Shown here: in pieces, positions 6,590-36,462 of the stretch
How the letters are laid out: the number at the start of each line of letters is the position of its first letter
Position numbering within the stretch: the first letter of the stretch is position 1
Source: Sphingobacteriaceae bacterium
GTDB lineage: Bacteria > Bacteroidota > Bacteroidia > Sphingobacteriales > Sphingobacteriaceae
DNA: 36,462 nucleotides
NCBI GenBank assembly: GCA_947479815.1
Contig: CANKAT010000026.1
Location: 1 to 36,462, forward strand
Direction: 5' to 3'
Position numbers and translations under genes: made by a program
The notes under the pieces: model-generated
Seen by the model: only the letters and a program-made list of their open reading frames with translations
Databases searched by the model: none
What the model was told of the DNA's origin: nothing

Positions 6590-9500
6590 TATCCTGCTGA
6601 TTGCTGTAATTGTTGTTGCTGTAAAACCTTTTTGTACTCTGAAGGAAACACTTTTATAAATGATTTAGACGCATTATCCCAGTCATCAAGAATATATTTA
6701 GCAACCTGACTTTGGGTAAGCTGGAAGTGCTTGTTGAGCAAAATCAAGATCTCTTCTACATCTTTAGGAGTGAGTGGATCCAATTCTACCATTTCGGTAT
6801 TACAATTAGTTATAAAAGAATGATCGGCATCATAGACCCAGGCTATACCGCCGCTCATTCCAGCAGCAAAGTTACGTCCTGTTTTACCCAGTATTAGGGC
6901 TCTTCCCCCGGTCATGTATTCGCATCCATGATCACCAACGCCTTCAACCACTGCAATTGCACCTGAATTTCTAACTGCAAAACGCTCACCTGCCTGACCT
7001 CTGACAAATAATTCACCCGAAGTTGCTCCATATAGAGCCACATTTCCGATGATGATATTATCCTGTGACAAAACCTTACTCTTTACAGACGGATAAATAG
7101 CCAGTTGAGCTCCTGAAAGACCCTTTCCAACATAATCATTTGCTTCACCAGTCAATTCAAAGGAAATACCCTTAGTACAAAATGCACCAAAACTCTGTCC
7201 GGCAGAACCTGTAAACTTATAATTTATGGTATTATGAGGTAAACCTGCCGACTGATATTTTTTAGTAATCTCATTCGATAGTAATGTACCGGTAGTGCGA
7301 TCTGTATTTTTAATATCAAAGTCTGCAAATACTGGCTCTTTTGTATCTATCGCATTTTTGGCCTGTTCTACTAGTTTCCAATCCAGTATATTATCCAGAT
7401 TATGATCCTGTTTCTCACTATTATAGAGAGACATACCCGATGGATTATCCATAGCGTATAAAATATCTGAGAGATCGATGTTTTTAACTTTCCAATGATC
7501 TACATCATCACGCATTTTAAGACACTGAACCCTTCCAACCATATCATTAATGGTTTTGAATCCCAATTCAGCCATAATTTCACGTAATTCTTCGGCAATG
7601 AATCTGAATAGATTAACGATGTGTTCCGGCTTACCTGAAAATAGTTTTCTTAACTCTGGATCCTGGGTTGCAACACCAACAGGGCAAGTATTCAAGTGAC
7701 ATTTACGCATCATGATACAACCACCGGCAACCAGAGCTGCAGTAGCAACACCCCATTCTTCTGCACCCAGAAGGGTAGCGATGGCAATATCCTTACCAGT
7801 TTTTAGCTGCCCGTCGGTTTGAAGTACAACTCTGCTTCTTAATTTATTCTTTACTAAAGTTTGCTGAGCCTCTGCAAGTCCAAGTTCCCAAGGCAAACCA
7901 GCATGCTTGATGGATGTCAAAGGAGAAGCTCCTGTTCCACCATCGTAGCCAGAGATAAGGATCACATCAGCATGCGCTTTGGCTACACCAGCTGCGATTG
8001 TACCTACACCTGCTTTAGAAACAAGTTTTACACTTATTCTGGCAGCACGATTTGCATTTTTTAAGTCAAAGATTAGCTGAGCAAGATCTTCAATTGAATA
8101 GATATCATGATGTGGTGGTGGTGAGATCAATCCTACACCGGGAGTTGCATGACGAACCTTAGCAATCCATTCATCAACTTTATCTCCGGGTAACTGACCA
8201 CCTTCGCCGGGTTTAGCACCCTGAGCCATTTTTATCTGTAATTCATCTGCATTGGTTAGGTAGTTTGCAGTAACACCAAACCTACCGGATGCAATCTGCT
8301 TAATTGCTGAACGCATAGAACCACCATCTGCCAAAGTCTCATATCTCAATTCATCCTCTCCACCTTCACCCGTATTACTTTTTGCACCAATACTATTCAT
8401 TGCAATTGCAAGAGTACTGTGTGCTTCATGTGAGATTGATCCGAATGACATCGCACCGGTTGCAAATCGTTTAAGGATAGTTTCTACAGGTTCAACTTCG
8501 TCTAAAGATACCGGCTGACGGTGATGTGCAAAGTCAAGTAAACCACGAATAGTGTATAGGGAATCAGTTTGTTTATTAATATACTGCGCATATTTCTTAT
8601 ACACTTCGTAATTATTGGTTCTGGTTGAATTCTGCAATAAATGAACGGTTTCAGGGTTAAAAAGATGAGCTTCACCCTTTCTTTTCCATTGATATACACC
8701 ACCTTCAGGCAGCAATTTGGCTTCTACACCTGTGCGTCTAAAACCCTGATAATGCTTGCGCAATGCTTCCTCAGCCAAATCGTCAAGCCCCATGCCGCTT
8801 ATACGTGAAACAACCCCTGTAAAATAATTTTCAATTACATCCTGATTCAATCCGATGATCTCAAAAATTTGAGCACCATGATAAGACTGAAGAGTAGATA
8901 TTCCCATTTTAGAAAATATCTTTAGAAGTCCATCGTTAATTGATTTAGTATAATTTTTATATAAAGCCTTCAAATCCAATTGAGTATCTAGCTTCTCATC
9001 AGTTTTTAATTTATGAATAGTTGCAAGTGCTAGATAAGGATTAACCGCAGTTGCACCAAAAGCAATAAGGCATGCAAAATGGTGAACTTCCCAAACATCA
9101 CCAGCTTCAACCATGATTCCTACAGCACCGCGCAAACCTTTTTTAATCAGGTGATGATGTACCGCAGAAACAGCGAGCAATGATGGAATTGGTGCATGCT
9201 CAGAGTCAATTGCACGATCTGAAAGAATCAATACCTCAAAACCATCATGAACGGCATCTTCAGCATATCTGCACAATCGATCTAAGCCTCTTTGTAAAGA
9301 ACCTGATTGTGCATCAGCTTTAAAATAAGTTTGCAATGTTTTGGCTTGAAAAGATCCGGTGTCAATACTTCTGATCTTTTCGAGCTCCGTATTACTTAAT
9401 ACAGGATGAGGTAAAGCCACACAATGACAGTGCATTTCATCTTCATCTAAGATATTACCATTATTACCCATGAATCCGGCAAGACTCATAACCAAACGCT

Positions 9501-12695: not shown

Positions 12696-13673
12696 TTGAA
12701 ATTGGAAAATATATACGATATTCTAATCATTGGCGGAGGGCCAATAGGCATGGCTTGTGGAATAGAAGCACAGAATGCAGGACTTAGCTATGTGATCGTT
12801 GAAAAAGGATGCATGGTTAATTCACTGTATAATTACCCTGCGAATATGACCTTCTTTTCTACTTCAGATAAACTGGAAATTGGTGGGGTGCCATTTGTGA
12901 GCAACAATATCAAACCAACACGAAGTGAGGCTTTAGAATATTACCGAAGAGTGGCATGTAAATTTAACCTCAATCTGAATTTATTTGAACTGGTTGAATC
13001 TGTTAATAAAGATTCTGGAAAATATATCGTTCATACTAATAAATCTGATTATCAAGTTAAATACATCATTGTATCTACGGGATTCTATGACATTCCAAAT
13101 AAATTAAATATTCCAGGCGAAGACCTTCCTAAAGTTAGGCATTATTATAAAGACCCTCACTACTACGCAAAACAGAAAGTATTAGTGATTGGTTCAAATA
13201 ACTCTTCAGTAGATGCGGCCTTAGAAACTTTTAGAAAAGGTGCTGAGGTTTGTATGGTGATTCGTGAATCAGAGATCGGAGAACGGGTAAAATACTGGGT
13301 CAGGCCCGATATTATAAATAGAATTAAGGAAGGAAGCATCAAAGTCTATTTTAATTCAAGCTTAAGCGCTATCAGCGAACATGAAGTTGAAATAAGTAGC
13401 CATGAAGGTAAAATAACAATAGTCAATGATTTTGTTTTAGCAATGACAGGCTACAAGCCTGATTTTTCATTTCTTAAAAAGCTTGGCATCAAGATCTCTA
13501 CTGATAAACAACAAAGGCCTGAACATGATCCGGTAACAATGGAAACCAATATGAAGGGCATTTACCTTGCAGGTGTGGTTTGCGGCGGAATGGACACTCA
13601 TATTTGGTTCATTGAAAATTCGAGGGTACACGCGGAACGGATAATTGAAAATATTAAATTGATTGATGGGTGA
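12696..13673 (+). CDS. YpdA/Bdr-like bacillithiol-disulfide reductase
   Basis: An FAD- and NADPH-binding flavoprotein related to Bacillus YpdA (Bdr), which reduces oxidised bacillithiol. The 325-residue product has an N-terminal FAD motif GGGPIGMA (about 13-20), the YpdA signature VNSLYNYPANMTFFST including the family's Cys nearby (C34 in EKGCMVN), a second nucleotide-binding motif VLVIGSNNSSVDAALE, and a closing GVVCGGMDT. No CxxC redox pair is seen, so it is not a thioredoxin reductase. The start is TTG, because an in-frame TAG sits directly upstream and no ATG is available. The last codons and stop lie inside a TGATGGG repeat. The role is inferred from the family. Confidence 0.85.
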   Translation: MKLENIYDILIIGGGPIGMACGIEAQNAGLSYVIVEKGCMVNSLYNYPANMTFFSTSDKLEIGGVPFVSNNIKPTRSEALEYYRRVACKFNLNLNLFELVESVNKDSGKYIVHTNKSDYQVKYIIVSTGFYDIPNKLNIPGEDLPKVRHYYKDPHYYAKQKVLVIGSNNSSVDAALETFRKGAEVCMVIRESEIGERVKYWVRPDIINRIKEGSIKVYFNSSLSAISEHEVEISSHEGKITIVNDFVLAMTGYKPDFSFLKKLGIKISTDKQQRPEHDPVTMETNMKGIYLAGVVCGGMDTHIWFIENSRVHAERIIENIKLIDG

Positions 13674-13731
13674 TGGGTGATGGGGGTTGTCAGTTGTCTG
13701 TTGTCTGTTATCAGTGGTCTGACTTTGCGGA
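13664..13731. repeat. Heptamer array overlapping the end of the YpdA-like gene
   Basis: TGATGGG is repeated three times from 13664, and the second copy contains the TGA stop codon in phase. It continues into GGTTGTC, AGTTGTC, TGTTGTC and TGTTATC words. From about 13735 to 13850 I see no gene and no clear repeat. Confidence 0.88.
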
Positions 13732-13853
13732 GAGCATGAATAATGGCAAAATGACAATTTAATTGAGTAGTACTAATAGATGATCATTGATTCAAATAAA
13801 TTCATTCTCTGCTTACTGTTTTATCGTTCCAGCCAGTCAACGGATAACTTAAG

Positions 13854-14107
13854 AATTGAGCCAAGACAAAGGATCAAGAACAAAGGACAATTCAGTGGCA
13901 ATTTGAAATTTTCTGTTTTTTTTCAGACCTTCTGATCTCGCACCTCAGACTTCCTGCTTCAGACAACCCGATAGCTATCGGGTGACAACAGATAAATAAT
14001 AGTATTAAGTACTGAGTATTGAGTATTGCGATAATTTAGCTTCATTTCATAGCAGCACTTCAGACTTCAGACCTCAGACCTCAGACCTCAGACTTCAGAC
14101 TTCAGAC
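13854..14107. repeat. Heptamer-repeat block downstream of the gmhB-like gene
   Basis: A compound repeat in the same order as the unit at the right edge: CCAAGACAAAGGATCAAG-type words, a spacer with CAATTCAGTG and CAATTTGAA, then CAGACCT-type words, a palindrome copy, GAGTATT words, and finally five to eight CAGACTT or CAGACCT words. The last word ends exactly on the CTA that is the complement of the gmhB-like TAG stop. It fills the gap between two genes that end towards each other. Confidence 0.88.
13967..13982. repeat. 16-bp palindrome, copy 3
   Basis: Identical to the copies at 166 and 341. On the minus strand it again follows TTGTCA and precedes TTGTCTG, so the surrounding array is the same element in the other orientation. 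Confidence 0.9.
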
Positions 14108-14593
14108 CTAAATAATTAAACTCAAAACCTCCTCAATCGGTTGATCACTATCAATCAATATACCGGTCACTCCTGCAGCTTCGCCTGCTATGACATCTCG
14201 TTCACGGTCACCAATAAAATAAGATTGAGAAGCATCGATTGCAAAGCGTGCAAGTGCTTTTTCGAGCATCAATGATCCCGGCTTACGACATAAACATTTG
14301 CCATTATATTCCGGATGATGATTGCAATAATATACCTCAGATATTAGCACTCCCTGTTCAGCATAAGTAGTTTTTAATTGAGCATGCATTTGATCAAGAA
14401 CTTCTACGGAATACCAACCTTTAGCAAGACCACCTTGATTGGTAATCACGATCAATAGATATCCCCTATCCTGCAATTTCTTTAAAGCTTTAAAATTATG
14501 TTCAAGCACTTTAAAATCATCAAAACGACATACATAATCGCCTAATTCCTTATTTAATACTCCATCTCGATCCAAAAAAACAGCTTTATTCAT
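14108..14593 (-). CDS. gmhB: HAD-IIIA phosphatase, GmhB-like
   Basis: Probably D-glycero-D-manno-heptose 1,7-bisphosphate 7-phosphatase, which acts in making the heptose of LPS cores, or a related histidinol-phosphatase-type enzyme. The 161-residue protein has the HAD nucleophile motif FLDRDGVLN, the threonine motif VITNQGG, a Lys in CRKPGS, and the acidic motif FIGDRERD. A GmhB-type zinc loop is visible as CNHHPEYNGKCLC. The ATG at 14593 (MNKAVFLDRDG) is chosen over a TTG four codons upstream. It stands alone, with no other heptose gene nearby. Its TAG stop is the first three bases of a heptamer array. Confidence 0.82.
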   Translation of the reverse strand: MNKAVFLDRDGVLNKELGDYVCRFDDFKVLEHNFKALKKLQDRGYLLIVITNQGGLAKGWYSVEVLDQMHAQLKTTYAEQGVLISEVYYCNHHPEYNGKCLCRKPGSLMLEKALARFAIDASQSYFIGDRERDVIAGEAAGVTGILIDSDQPIEEVLSLII

Positions 14594-21762: not shown

Positions 21763-21838
<76 letters not shown>

Positions 21839-21895: not shown

Positions 21896-21964
21896 GCTCG
21901 GATGGTGGATCCCGATAACTATCGGGAGGTAGACACGAGAACGGTTTCGATTACCGTATTATAA
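21896..21964 (+). pseudogene. Broken tRNA-Leu copy with palindrome in its D-loop
   Basis: A 23-bp block at 21887-21909 repeats the leader and 5' end of the intact tRNA-Leu (21972-21994). Where the real gene reads ACT inside the D-loop, this copy has an 18-nt block containing CCCGATAACTATCGGG; the tRNA sequence GGTAGACACG then resumes. The anticodon arm is missing, but a T-arm-like hairpin (ACGGT, loop TTCGATT, ACCGT) follows. No matching 3' acceptor strand is found. It is probably a dead duplicate. Confidence 0.8.
21911..21926. repeat. 16-bp palindrome variant, copy 4
   Basis: CCCGATAACTATCGGG: 7-bp arms identical to the other copies, with the centre AC in place of GC. It lies within the D-loop position of the broken tRNA-Leu copy, flanked by T and A. 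Confidence 0.88.
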
Positions 21965-21980
21965 AATCGTTTAACCATCT

Positions 21981-22066
21981 GCTCGGATGGTGGAACTGGT
22001 AGACACGCAGGACTTAAAATCCTGTGACCCTTAAAGGTCGTGCGGGTTCGATTCCCGCTCCGAGTA
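21981..22066 (+). tRNA. tRNA-Leu (UAA)
   Basis: The acceptor stem GCTCGGA pairs with TCCGAGT, including a G-U first pair. It is a class II tRNA with a long variable arm (GTGACCCTTAAAGGTCGT region). The anticodon loop is CTTAAAA with anticodon TAA, and the T-arm is GCGGG, TTCGATT, CCCGC. CCA is not encoded in full. It is followed by its own terminator and flanked by two partial copies of itself. Confidence 0.96.
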
Positions 22067-22069
22067 CAA

Positions 22070-22103
22070 AAACCCTCTTTACGTATTGTATAGAGGGTTT
22101 TTT
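22070..22103 (+). terminator. Terminator of tRNA-Leu
   Basis: AACCCTCT (22071-22078) pairs with AGAGGGTT (22092-22099), and a T-run follows directly. It is a strong intrinsic terminator. Confidence 0.85.
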
Positions 22104-22127
22104 GTTTTTTACATACAATAAAGTGAA

Positions 22128-22169
22128 TGCGGGTTCGCCCCGATAGCTATCGGGACCCGCTCCGAGTAC
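22128..22169 (+). pseudogene. 3' fragment of tRNA-Leu with palindrome in its T-loop
   Basis: TGCGGGTTCG and CCCGCTCCGAGTAC match the intact tRNA-Leu 3' end at 22041-22067. The two bases of the T-loop and one neighbour (ATT) are replaced by a block holding CCCGATAGCTATCGGG at 22139-22154. The upstream tRNA half is absent. The downstream bases and a second hairpin terminator are also duplicated, so the copy included the terminator region. Confidence 0.82.
22139..22154. repeat. 16-bp palindrome, copy 5
   Basis: An exact CCCGATAGCTATCGGG in the T-loop position of the 3' tRNA-Leu fragment. Confidence 0.9.
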
Positions 22170-22170
22170 A

Positions 22171-22263: not shown

Positions 22264-22509
22264 ATGACAACCAAGTTAACATTGACTGTAGAAAAGACAA
22301 TAATAGAAAGGGCAAAATCATATGCAAAGAAAACGGGAAGGAGCCTGTCTGAATTGATTGAGAACTATCTTGAAACAATAACTGAAGAAGATAGTAATTC
22401 GGACATGTCTCCCAAACTTAAAAAGTTAGTCGGGTCGGTTCAATTACCTGCAGACTTTAACTACAATAAAGAATTACGTTCGGCCATTGAAAAGAAACAC
22501 CTACTATGA
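22264..22509 (+). CDS. Antitoxin of a VapBC-like pair (ribbon-helix-helix type)
   Basis: An 81-residue protein whose first half reads as a ribbon-helix-helix DNA-binding fold: a beta strand KLTLTVEKTI, then helices with RAKSYAKKTGRSLSELIENYL. This looks like the DUF6364 group. The C-terminal half (SPKLKKLVGSVQLPADFNYN) is the expected toxin-binding tail. It overlaps the toxin gene by 4 bp (ATGA), which implies coupled translation. It probably represses its own promoter through the two repeats directly upstream. Confidence 0.82.
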   Translation: MTTKLTLTVEKTIIERAKSYAKKTGRSLSELIENYLETITEEDSNSDMSPKLKKLVGSVQLPADFNYNKELRSAIEKKHLL

Positions 22510-22919
22510 TCAGAGTTTTTCTTGACACTAATATTTTGGTCGATTTGATAGCAGACAGGAAGCCATTCAGTAAACATGCAATTGAAATTTTTAAAAGTGC
22601 TGAGGAGCACAAAATGCAACTTTATACTTCATCACATTCAATCGCAACTGCGCATTACCTTCTAAAAAAATATGTGGACGAAAAGGAACTACGAAATATC
22701 CTGTCCAATCTACTGGAATTTCTTGATGTGATTCCTGTCGACCTCGATGTGTTAAAAAAAGGGTTACGCTCCATTCATAAAGATTTTGAAGACGCCATAC
22801 AAATTCTTTGTGCTTCTTCAATCACTGGAATTGATTTCATCGTGACCAGAAATACAAAGGATTTTAAAACAAGTGAAATTGCAGTTTTAACTCCAGATGA
22901 AATGTGTTTAAAATTATAG
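22506..22919 (+). CDS. PIN-domain toxin (VapC-like ribonuclease)
   Basis: A 137-residue PIN-domain protein of the PIN_3 type, expected to cut RNA with divalent metal; VapC relatives cleave tRNA or rRNA. Acidic residues seen are D7 in FLDTN, D96 in DFEDAIQ, and D119 in TRNTKDF. The usual second-position Glu after strand 2 is not obvious: the sequence there is YTSSHSIAT, so activity should not be assumed. It is held in check by the overlapping antitoxin gene. Its place beside duplicated tRNA-Leu pieces suggests arrival by insertion next to the tRNA, although no integrase is present. Confidence 0.85.
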   Translation: MIRVFLDTNILVDLIADRKPFSKHAIEIFKSAEEHKMQLYTSSHSIATAHYLLKKYVDEKELRNILSNLLEFLDVIPVDLDVLKKGLRSIHKDFEDAIQILCASSITGIDFIVTRNTKDFKTSEIAVLTPDEMCLKL

Positions 22920-34929: not shown

Positions 34930-36075
34930 ATGATCAAATTACTTTCTCCAAAAATTACATCCATCCTTTTTCTACTTTTTATTTCATTATCTGGATTTGC
35001 TCAAAATGAAAAAGCAGAAGCTGATTTGGGTGAGATCATGAAAAAACTAGACGTAGTGGGGCTTTCTGTCGCCGTAGTAAAGAAAGGCAATATTATTTAC
35101 AGCCATTCTTTTGGAGTGAAAGATAACACCACCAATGCTCCCCTCACTGATGAAAATATCTTCCGGATTGCTTCGATATCCAAGTCATTCTCAGCCACTT
35201 CAATCATGCAGTTGATAGAAGCTGGAAAGCTTTCACTGGATGATGATTTCAGTAATCTGGTGGGCTTCAATATTAGGAATCCTAAATTTCCGGAAACAGT
35301 AATCACCTTGAGAATGATCTTATCCCATACTTCAAGCATTAACGATAGCCAGGGATATTTTACACTTGATGCCATTAATCCGGCTAAAAACCCAGATTGG
35401 CAAAAATGCTATAGCGATTTTAAACCAGGAACAGATTATCGCTATTGTAATCTAAATTATAACATGATCGGAACCGTGATTGAGAAATACTCAGGAGAAC
35501 GCTTCGATCAATATGTAAATAAACACATCTTAAATCCATTGGGTTTATATGGAGGATACAATGTTGATTCATTGGATGCTATGCGCTTTGCCACTTTGCA
35601 CGAATACAATACAAGCACTAAAAGATTAATCCCATCACCATTAGCTTACGCTCCCAGAAAAGAGGAAATAAAGAATTATGTAATGGGATACAGTACCCCT
35701 ATTTTTTCTCCAACCGGTGGAATGAAAATTTCTGCTACCGACCTTGCAAAATATATGACCATGCATATGAACTATGGTAAATATAAAGGAACCAGAATCA
35801 TGTCAAAGAAAAGTGCCCGCTTAATGCAAACCAAAATATCTGAGGAAGAAGGCTATGGAATGGCAATTGCAAATCGTGAAGATGTTATACCGGGTAAAAT
35901 AATGACCGGACATACTGGTTCAGCATACGGACTATACAGCGCCATGTTTTTTAATCCTAAAGAGAAATTTGGAATTGTGGTGATTACTAATGGCTGTAAT
36001 CCAAGCTCAAGAAATGGACTAAATGATGTTTTAAGGGCTGGAGTGAATAGTTTGTACGAGAATTTTATTAAGTAG
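34930..36075 (+). CDS. Secreted S12 serine hydrolase (class C beta-lactamase fold)
   Basis: A 381-residue penicillin-binding-protein-like hydrolase. Active-site motifs are S82-I-S-K85 (SxxK), YCN in YRYCNLNYN (YxN), and HTG in MTGHTGSAYG. The ATG at 34930 gives a clean signal peptide (MIKLLSPKITSILFLLFISL, ending GFAQ); earlier Met codons at 34870 and 34906 would add a long charged leader. Relatives include D-aminopeptidases, esterases and amidases, so the substrate is open. It diverges from the cluster and shares the operator region, so it is probably co-regulated. Its TAG stop lies directly before a heptamer array. Confidence 0.9.
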   Translation: MIKLLSPKITSILFLLFISLSGFAQNEKAEADLGEIMKKLDVVGLSVAVVKKGNIIYSHSFGVKDNTTNAPLTDENIFRIASISKSFSATSIMQLIEAGKLSLDDDFSNLVGFNIRNPKFPETVITLRMILSHTSSINDSQGYFTLDAINPAKNPDWQKCYSDFKPGTDYRYCNLNYNMIGTVIEKYSGERFDQYVNKHILNPLGLYGGYNVDSLDAMRFATLHEYNTSTKRLIPSPLAYAPRKEEIKNYVMGYSTPIFSPTGGMKISATDLAKYMTMHMNYGKYKGTRIMSKKSARLMQTKISEEEGYGMAIANREDVIPGKIMTGHTGSAYGLYSAMFFNPKEKFGIVVITNGCNPSSRNGLNDVLRAGVNSLYENFIK

Positions 36076-36462
36076 AATCAGGAACCAAGAGCCAAGAACC
36101 AAGAACCAAGAACCAAGAACCAAGAACCAAGACAAAAGATCAAAGACAAAAGACAAAAGATCAAAGACAAAAGACTTTGTAGTGCTAATTTGCGTATTGA
36201 GTATTGAGTATTGAGATAGATTCTGCTTCAGGCTTCAGACCTCTGACTTCAGACCTCTTACCTCAGAAAACAGATAACAGATAACAGACAACTGATAACA
36301 GACAACTGATAACTGACAACTGACAACAGAACCAGGAACAAAGATCAAAGACAAAGGACTATTCAGTGCTAATTTGAGTATTGAGTAAGGAGTATTGATT
36401 ATAGAGTATTGAGTATTGAGATAGATTCTGCTTCAGGCTTCAGACCTCTGACTTCAGACCTC
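36076..36462. repeat. Heptamer-repeat region at the right edge
   Basis: A heptamer array that starts immediately after the S12 hydrolase stop codon. It begins with AACCAAG words, then ACAAAAG and ATCAAAG, a spacer holding GTGCTAATTTG, TATTGAG words, a GATAGATTCTGCTTCAGG link, CAGACCT words, CAGATAA and CAACTGA words (about 19 in one phase), and again ACAAAGATC words. The block at 36213-36257 recurs identically at 36418-36462 (45 bp, offset 205 bp), where the window ends. It is the same element as at 1-550, in the opposite orientation. No coding frame is supported. Confidence 0.9.

Follow-up and report, generated by a model that had tools for sequence, protein, structure and literature searches.

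Introduction

What has placed the same short palindrome in the loops of two broken tRNA-Leu copies, one on each side of an intact gene? The question is raised by a 36,462-nt stretch of DNA from a Sphingobacteriaceae bacterium (contig C26 of a 3.2-Mb draft genome), which we call the window. A first-pass annotation had suggested that the palindrome enters single-stranded loops, with structure rather than sequence as its guide, and had named the GC clusters and double-hairpin elements of mitochondria as a loose parallel. Both are small, GC-rich repeats that form hairpins, encode nothing and lie in AT-rich DNA. Compared by description only, they share with the palindrome that they are small, coding-free hairpin repeats, whereas here the host is bacterial, one conserved palindrome extends across a phylum and there is a tie to GIY-YIG genes.

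The tRNA-Leu Locus in the Window and Its Genus

ARAGORN places a tRNA-Gly at 21763-21838 and, on the forward strand, an intact tRNA-Leu with anticodon UAA at 21981-22067. Upstream, on the same strand, lies a 5′ piece of tRNA-Leu(UAA) (21896-21936), composed of the 5′ strand of the acceptor and the D-arm, with 21 of 22 flank letters as in the intact tRNA-Leu. From 21896 it reads GCTCGGATGGTGGA, followed by 18 nt (21910-21927) and GGTAGACAC; these 18 nt are the palindrome T-CCCGATAACTATCGGG-A (listed without strand, like all palindromes here), which replaces the ACT found at 21995-21997 in the D-loop of the intact copy. Downstream, a short spacer with a terminator-like hairpin (22068-22128, forward strand) leads to a 3′ piece on the forward strand (22129-22170), holding the T-arm and the 3′ strand of the acceptor, again with 21 of 22 flank letters as in tRNA-Leu. 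Here GCGGGTTCG (22129-22137) and CCCGCTCCGAGTACA enclose the 18-nt palindrome C-CCCGATAGCTATCGGG-A (22138-22155), replacing the ATT of the T-loop (22051-22053 in the intact copy). Comparison with the intact gene confirms that the two broken copies carry palindromes in the D-loop and T-loop, respectively, and revises the size first quoted as 16 nt: in both pieces, 18 nt came in and 3 nt went out. Both pieces are predicted to fold with the palindrome as a hairpin, which in the D-loop has a 7-bp stem and a 4-nt loop. The spacer lacks a GIY-YIG gene, whereas in loci of relatives (L053, L273) such a gene lies between the intact tRNA and the 3′ piece. Directly after the 3′ piece, 22264-22919 encodes a DUF6364 protein and a PIN-domain protein (Pfam), which look like a toxin-antitoxin pair.

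A partial tRNA end displaced from an intact tRNA, as expected of an integrative element, is thus present. In the available part of PMC9897764, tRNA fragments from integration are described as common and, like the pieces here, they adjoin the intact tRNA; the fragments treated in that part differ from ours in having no palindromes in their loops. The pieces could be displaced ends left by phage or ICE integrases, whose loops were later entered by an independent mobile palindrome, and the palindrome indeed also enters the loops of unrelated hairpins. We nevertheless consider this origin unlikely: no integrase was seen by eye among the window ORFs, none of the seven congeners that share the 5′ piece has it without a palindrome, and tRNA copies located through GIY-YIG genes alone hold other palindromes.

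Among the 20 genomes of the genus, the window's included, eight have the D-loop-filled 5′ piece, ten have the intact tRNA-Leu alone and two could not be scored. The first-pass annotation had the palindrome entering existing tRNA pieces, and had itself held that pieces arising with their palindrome already in place would speak against this. The sister species go part of the way towards that outcome: with every shared 5′ piece filled, entry into an existing piece is unsupported at the tRNA. A 3′ part with a filled T-loop was recovered in the genus search only from the window genome and from G002. The latter has three tandem 5′ pieces, its downstream copy adjoins a GIY-YIG-like ORF (below the Pfam threshold), and it has a downstream copy filled in both the D-loop and the T-loop. 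We infer from sequence comparison that the window locus is probably a shrunken version of the layout seen in G002 and in G061, a genome of another family.

Across ten copies from eight species, the 14 stem columns are invariant and all four loop columns vary. A variable loop with a fixed stem is likewise found genus-wide by a search pattern that fixes the stem by construction. Both patterns would suit palindrome-filled tRNA copies that have a function as RNAs or signals, whether as decoys or as processing or regulatory hairpins, with the hairpin kept by selection. The absence of the piece from 10 of the 20 genus genomes argues against such a function, which we regard as rather improbable.

Distribution of the Palindrome

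With two mismatches allowed, the palindrome, mostly TCCCGATAGCTATCGGGA, matches five sites of the window (10 strand-wise matches against 0.02 expected). The window genome holds 48 exact copies of the 16-mer and 65 at up to two mismatches, against none for a reversed-pattern control. The window count, this control and the flank swaps given below rule out simple chance as the origin of the copies. It is present in 22 of 60 genomes drawn from genus to class (window genome included); counts reach 32 in a congener and 25 outside the window's family, and the window genome has the most copies in the genus. At least 118 stretches with the 16-mer occur in the GTDB collection and 42 stretches with the palindrome in IMG/VR. 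Among the GTDB matches listed, 79 of 80 titles name Bacteroidota groups and one reads 'uncultured bacterium'. A search of the open-licence literature gave no match for the 16-mer or a 14-mer.

Clear heptamer arrays contain 18 of the 53 copies found in the window genome at up to one mismatch, and a repeat hairpin family contains 11; among the remaining 24 are four in tRNA-copy loops and several in weaker heptamer arrays. Three isolated settings were seen elsewhere. In L144 the palindrome (1985-2000) begins 2 nt past the end of a Flavo-1 RNA match (1894-1983), in L169 it is separated from such a match by 22 nt, and in L085 (1537) it is read in frame, as judged by eye, within an apparent lipoprotein signal peptide.

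The flank profile of the 215 copies outside the window genome consists of a T before (0.80), an A after (0.80) and nothing else. REP elements, moved by a REP-associated Y1 (HUH) transposase, are likewise short repeated palindromes, some of which have entered other palindromes according to the available part of PMC3733652. It is very unlikely that the present palindrome is one of them. In the flank profile there is neither GTAG nor CGTC, with which REPs tag one end of a 20-40-nt palindrome; the palindrome here is shorter than REPs (16-18 nt) and is biased towards loops, including those of tRNAs, and the window genome has no match to Y1_Tnp (PF01797), on which ground mobilization by a RAYT was rejected.

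The loss of about 3 nt and gain of 18 could also fit a trimmed staggered cut at which non-homologous end joining captured a blunt palindromic duplex. Such capture appears extremely improbable, and was rejected, since Ku (PF02735) is absent from the window genome; it is also absent from most palindrome-rich congeners. Genomes with Ku tend to be poor in palindromes: of the six (among 20) that have it, five contain 0-3 copies and G002 contains 28.

Palindromes in tRNA Loops across Bacteroidota

Removal of copies with less than 30 nt of flank, with N or with identical flanks reduced 281 copies to 263, with L041-L070 and later-fetched loci also left out. Both flanks match one tRNA gene at 19 or more of 22 letters in 11 of the 263, compared to 0-1 in 12 left/right swaps, and these copies mostly lack exactly 3 tRNA letters. 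Together with copies found by eye, there are about 14 loci at which a partial tRNA copy has the palindrome in its D- or T-loop. These comprise Leu (Leu(UAA) in the window genus; G039/G063/G061; L223; L002 of the window genome), Met (L025 of the window genome; L233, a viral contig), Phe (L208), Val (L101), Arg (L203; L260, a viral contig), Pro (L126), Gly (L146), Trp (L103) and a T-arm piece (L200). L002 and L025 each combine an intact tRNA with a downstream T-loop piece. Copies with this palindrome have the D-loop filled if they lie upstream of the intact tRNA and the T-loop if they lie downstream. In L200, near 2290-2370, the acceptor and T-arm of a tRNA-like sequence are complete and the D-arm is replaced by TCCCGATAATTATCGAGA (by eye).

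Partial copies accompany 17 of the 50 distinct intact tRNAs in the collected loci. Compared by eye with the intact gene, all 26 rows (24 partial copies) contain a palindrome or hairpin; most of these loci had been picked by the palindrome, L043 by tRNA similarity, and L358, L364, L376 and L380 by GIY-YIG. The tRNA-Asn copy of L378 contains a palindrome too, again by eye. As an unselected control we took 20 loci of congeners, which largely represent one orthologous cluster; with 90 intact tRNAs, they have a single partial copy, a tRNA-Trp remnant without palindrome in L398; palindrome-filled copies are therefore not a general feature of tRNA clusters. A hairpin test with arms of at least 5 does not discriminate partial copies, as 72 of the 90 intact tRNAs also pass, and we therefore rely on an inserted palindrome visible against the intact copy. 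None of 395 genomes of the phylum matched a strict D-loop pattern, which makes the tRNA form a rare one when counted by genome. Scanning the 263 copies with a T-arm/D-arm pattern yielded nine matches, some plainly not tRNA (L078, L111), compared to a mean of 1.8 and a maximum of 7 in swaps. After removal of the palindrome, ARAGORN recognized L233 only.

Association with Small GIY-YIG Nuclease Genes

The reading by loop entry misses that GIY-YIG genes accompany such tRNA pieces elsewhere. In another family, G039, G063 and G061 combine a D-loop palindrome piece, an intact tRNA-Leu, a GIY-YIG ORF and a T-loop palindrome piece, the ORF of G061 lying between the intact tRNA-Leu and the T-loop piece; G060, G064 and G065 have a single intact tRNA instead. 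The tRNA-Leu locus of the G039 genus has the pieces in three of seven genomes and lacks them in three, and one (G062) could not be scored. Palindrome- or hairpin-filled tRNA copies also occur in the GIY-YIG (Pfam) loci L208 (tRNA-Phe), L223 (tRNA-Leu), L126 (Pro/Thr) and L215 (tRNA-Val). L215 shows the order intact tRNA-Val, GIY-YIG, tRNA copy without anticodon arm, GIY-YIG, second such copy; a hairpin, which is a different palindrome, takes the place of the anticodon arm in these copies. In L126, a tRNA-Thr copy (7700-7809) follows the GIY-YIG ORF, and its T-loop holds another palindrome, CCTGTCTGCCGACAGGCAGG.

Congener loci picked by GIY-YIG alone contain tRNA-Arg, Ser, Asn and Val copies with other palindromes, and a tRNA is present in 7 of 23 small GIY-YIG loci taken from the genus. 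The GTDB sample contains six GIY-YIG ORFs, four of them no more than 250 nt from the palindrome (binomial 0.003). The ORF of L044 has its best PDB sequence matches among UPF0213 / SLX1 GIY-YIG proteins (1zg2, 1ywl, 7wme), a weak similarity that says nothing on substrate. Palindrome-filled tRNA copies and GIY-YIG genes are linked, and this is the larger finding of our analysis.

The window genome has no small GIY-YIG gene, its two matches lying in frames of 601 and 466 aa. No GIY-YIG match was found in the sequenced stretch examined around the palindrome-filled tRNA copies of L203, L146 and L260, and most palindromes have neither a tRNA nor a GIY-YIG gene nearby. GIY-YIG dose was rejected as the cause of palindrome number in the genus because the two do not track each other (G003 has seven GIY-YIG matches and one palindrome). 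In L313 of G039, a GIY-YIG gene (1539-1862) adjoins ACCCTG..CAGGGT repeat hairpins, a repeat that may have a similar tie.

Hairpin Loops and Sequence Preference

A perfect stem of at least 6 within 12 nt of both ends surrounds 40 of the 263 deduplicated copies, whereas 100 left/right flank swaps give 12.3 on average and 20 at most. For tests against genomic background, copies inside ORFs of at least 100 aa were removed, leaving 179 of the 215 copies outside the window genome. With gaps of up to 6, these have a stem of at least 5 in 17.9% and of at least 6 in 8.9% of cases, against 8.2% and 3.3% of random intergenic positions. Measured against the same intergenic interval, for which 170 copies had enough sequence, stems of at least 5 are found at 30 (14.6 expected; 3 of 20000 simulations as high) and of at least 6 at 15 (7.5 expected; 141 of 20000). 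At a stem of at least 7 the excess in this comparison is not significant (6 of 170, 3.1 expected; 1677 of 20000).

Repeat families with empty and filled members show the replacement of loops directly. The repeat hairpin ACCCTGAAACAAGTTCAGGGT of G039 is empty in 21 of 25 rows and loop-filled in four, three with this palindrome (one in G049) and one with TACCGATAGTTATCGGTA. A 44-match repeat of the window genome, extracted at 19 loci, has an empty loop (CCGCATTGACTGGTGCGG or close variants) in 11 and a palindrome-filled loop in four, the remaining four being out of register (L321, L338, L340, L350). The palindrome also occurs inside a palindrome (TCCCG[T-palindrome-A]GCTATCGGGA) and between terminator-like arms (L217, L190, L252, L257, L269). 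Rfam, run on 117 of the 118 listed GTDB loci (all but L227; viral and class loci left out), placed the L139 copy within the gene for RNase P RNA (RF00010, 246 bits); CCCCG and CGGGG enclose it close to the 3′ end of this gene, a position that we take to be helix P19.

Such sites would also be expected if the palindrome inserted anywhere and survived only in the loops of RNAs, terminators and other hairpins, since their stems must be kept: the RNase P RNA and terminator loops are places that tolerate insertions. Moreover, only 36 of the 215 copies outside the window genome lie inside ORFs against an ORF coverage of 82%, and purging therefore acts. That survival explains the bias seems fairly unlikely to us. 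Selection should not favour loops over neutral positions within one and the same interval, which is what is observed for stems of at least 5 (significance being lost at 7), and no function worth protecting is evident in the broken tRNA copies.

The proposed entry into hairpin loops thus holds as a bias, not as a rule. It is carried by the excess across the 263 copies, the empty and filled paralogues, the RNase P RNA and the tRNA loops at about 14 loci. However, most copies have no detectable stem around them, and the window genome alone has no excess (a stem of at least 6 in 2 of 48 copies compared to 3.8 in swaps). With a factor of roughly two, the bias fails to account for most copies.

The suggestion that structure rather than sequence is the guide found no support in the heptamer arrays. 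In the window, heptamer-phased repeat arrays occupy 1-550, 13672-14135 and 36074-36462; they are inverted at the two ends of the contig and contain palindromes in a fixed register. The same palindrome lies in heptamer arrays at 166-181, 341-356 (below the strict period-7 cut) and 13967-13982. In the arrays read, the insertion point is TYA|GTY with one register kept, which means that sequence matters too; each insertion adds a net 15 nt, the same amount as in the tRNA loops. Judging from these sites, an ACT/AGT-like sequence preference seems to act together with structure.

Discussion

Repeated throughout the phylum, the palindrome takes the place of about 3 nt, with a preference for hairpin loops; in the window genome it also occupies ACT/AGT sites in heptamer arrays. 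That it lies in the loops of broken tRNAs and other hairpins, and often adjoins a small nuclease gene, suggests a mobile element of a little-known kind, of which the window genome has remnants only. As the best explanation of the window locus we tentatively propose, at somewhat less than an even chance, the decayed remains of a homing-like element of the GIY-YIG kind at a tRNA gene, with palindromes in its broken tRNA copies. We observe the layout, the loop positions, the 3-to-18 exchange, its recurrence in unrelated families and tRNAs, the GIY-YIG neighbours and the hairpin bias. Speaking against the proposal are the lack of a small GIY-YIG gene in the window genome, the poor match between GIY-YIG and palindrome numbers in the genus, the distance of most palindromes from tRNAs and GIY-YIG genes, the GIY-YIG-free loci L203, L146 and L260, the palindrome-free remnant of L398 and the rarity of the tRNA form.

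In its full form, to judge from relatives, the element would comprise a 5′ tRNA part with a filled D-loop, the intact copy, a small GIY-YIG gene and a 3′ part, or a copy without anticodon arm, with the palindrome in the T-loop or in the anticodon arm. The GIY-YIG nuclease would cut tRNA genes at or near loop sequences, and the element would enter at the cut and leave a working tRNA. As the displaced tRNA ends carry the palindrome at the loop, the recognition site beside the native flank would be removed and the occupied locus protected, a putative immunity by palindrome. The window locus would have lost its nuclease gene, and the mode by which the palindrome is copied likewise belongs to the conjectural part of the scheme.

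One of the closest models is SegB, a free-standing GIY-YIG homing endonuclease of T-even phages, which is reported to be enriched near tRNAs and to drive tandem amplification of a tRNA segment (PMC13096335, available part). In both cases a GIY-YIG gene lies beside tRNA genes. In contrast to SegB, a phage system described in that part of the paper without palindromes or hairpins, the present loci are bacterial and the loops of the tRNA copies are palindromes. As in homing, a tRNA-adjacent locus exists in occupied and empty alleles (8 and 10 in the window genus, 3 and 3 in the G039 genus). The GIY-YIG gene is at the locus in relatives and absent from the window genome. We found no report of palindrome-filled tRNA copies with GIY-YIG genes in the open-licence literature.

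More broadly, such loci might represent an unnamed class of Bacteroidota mobile elements, a possibility that we regard as doubtful. A small GIY-YIG nuclease would spread via tRNA genes, perhaps also other hairpins, and seal its displaced target by an 18-nt palindrome that replaces the loop, with the palindrome as a transposase-free mobile unit entering single-stranded loops.

The palindrome provides an example from bacteria in which short hairpins enter the loops of other hairpins, among them those of tRNA copies and of a ribozyme that is essential. With empty and filled sites both plentiful in nature, the spread of coding-free palindromes becomes testable, and the small GIY-YIG genes of the Bacteroidota become tied to tRNA genes.
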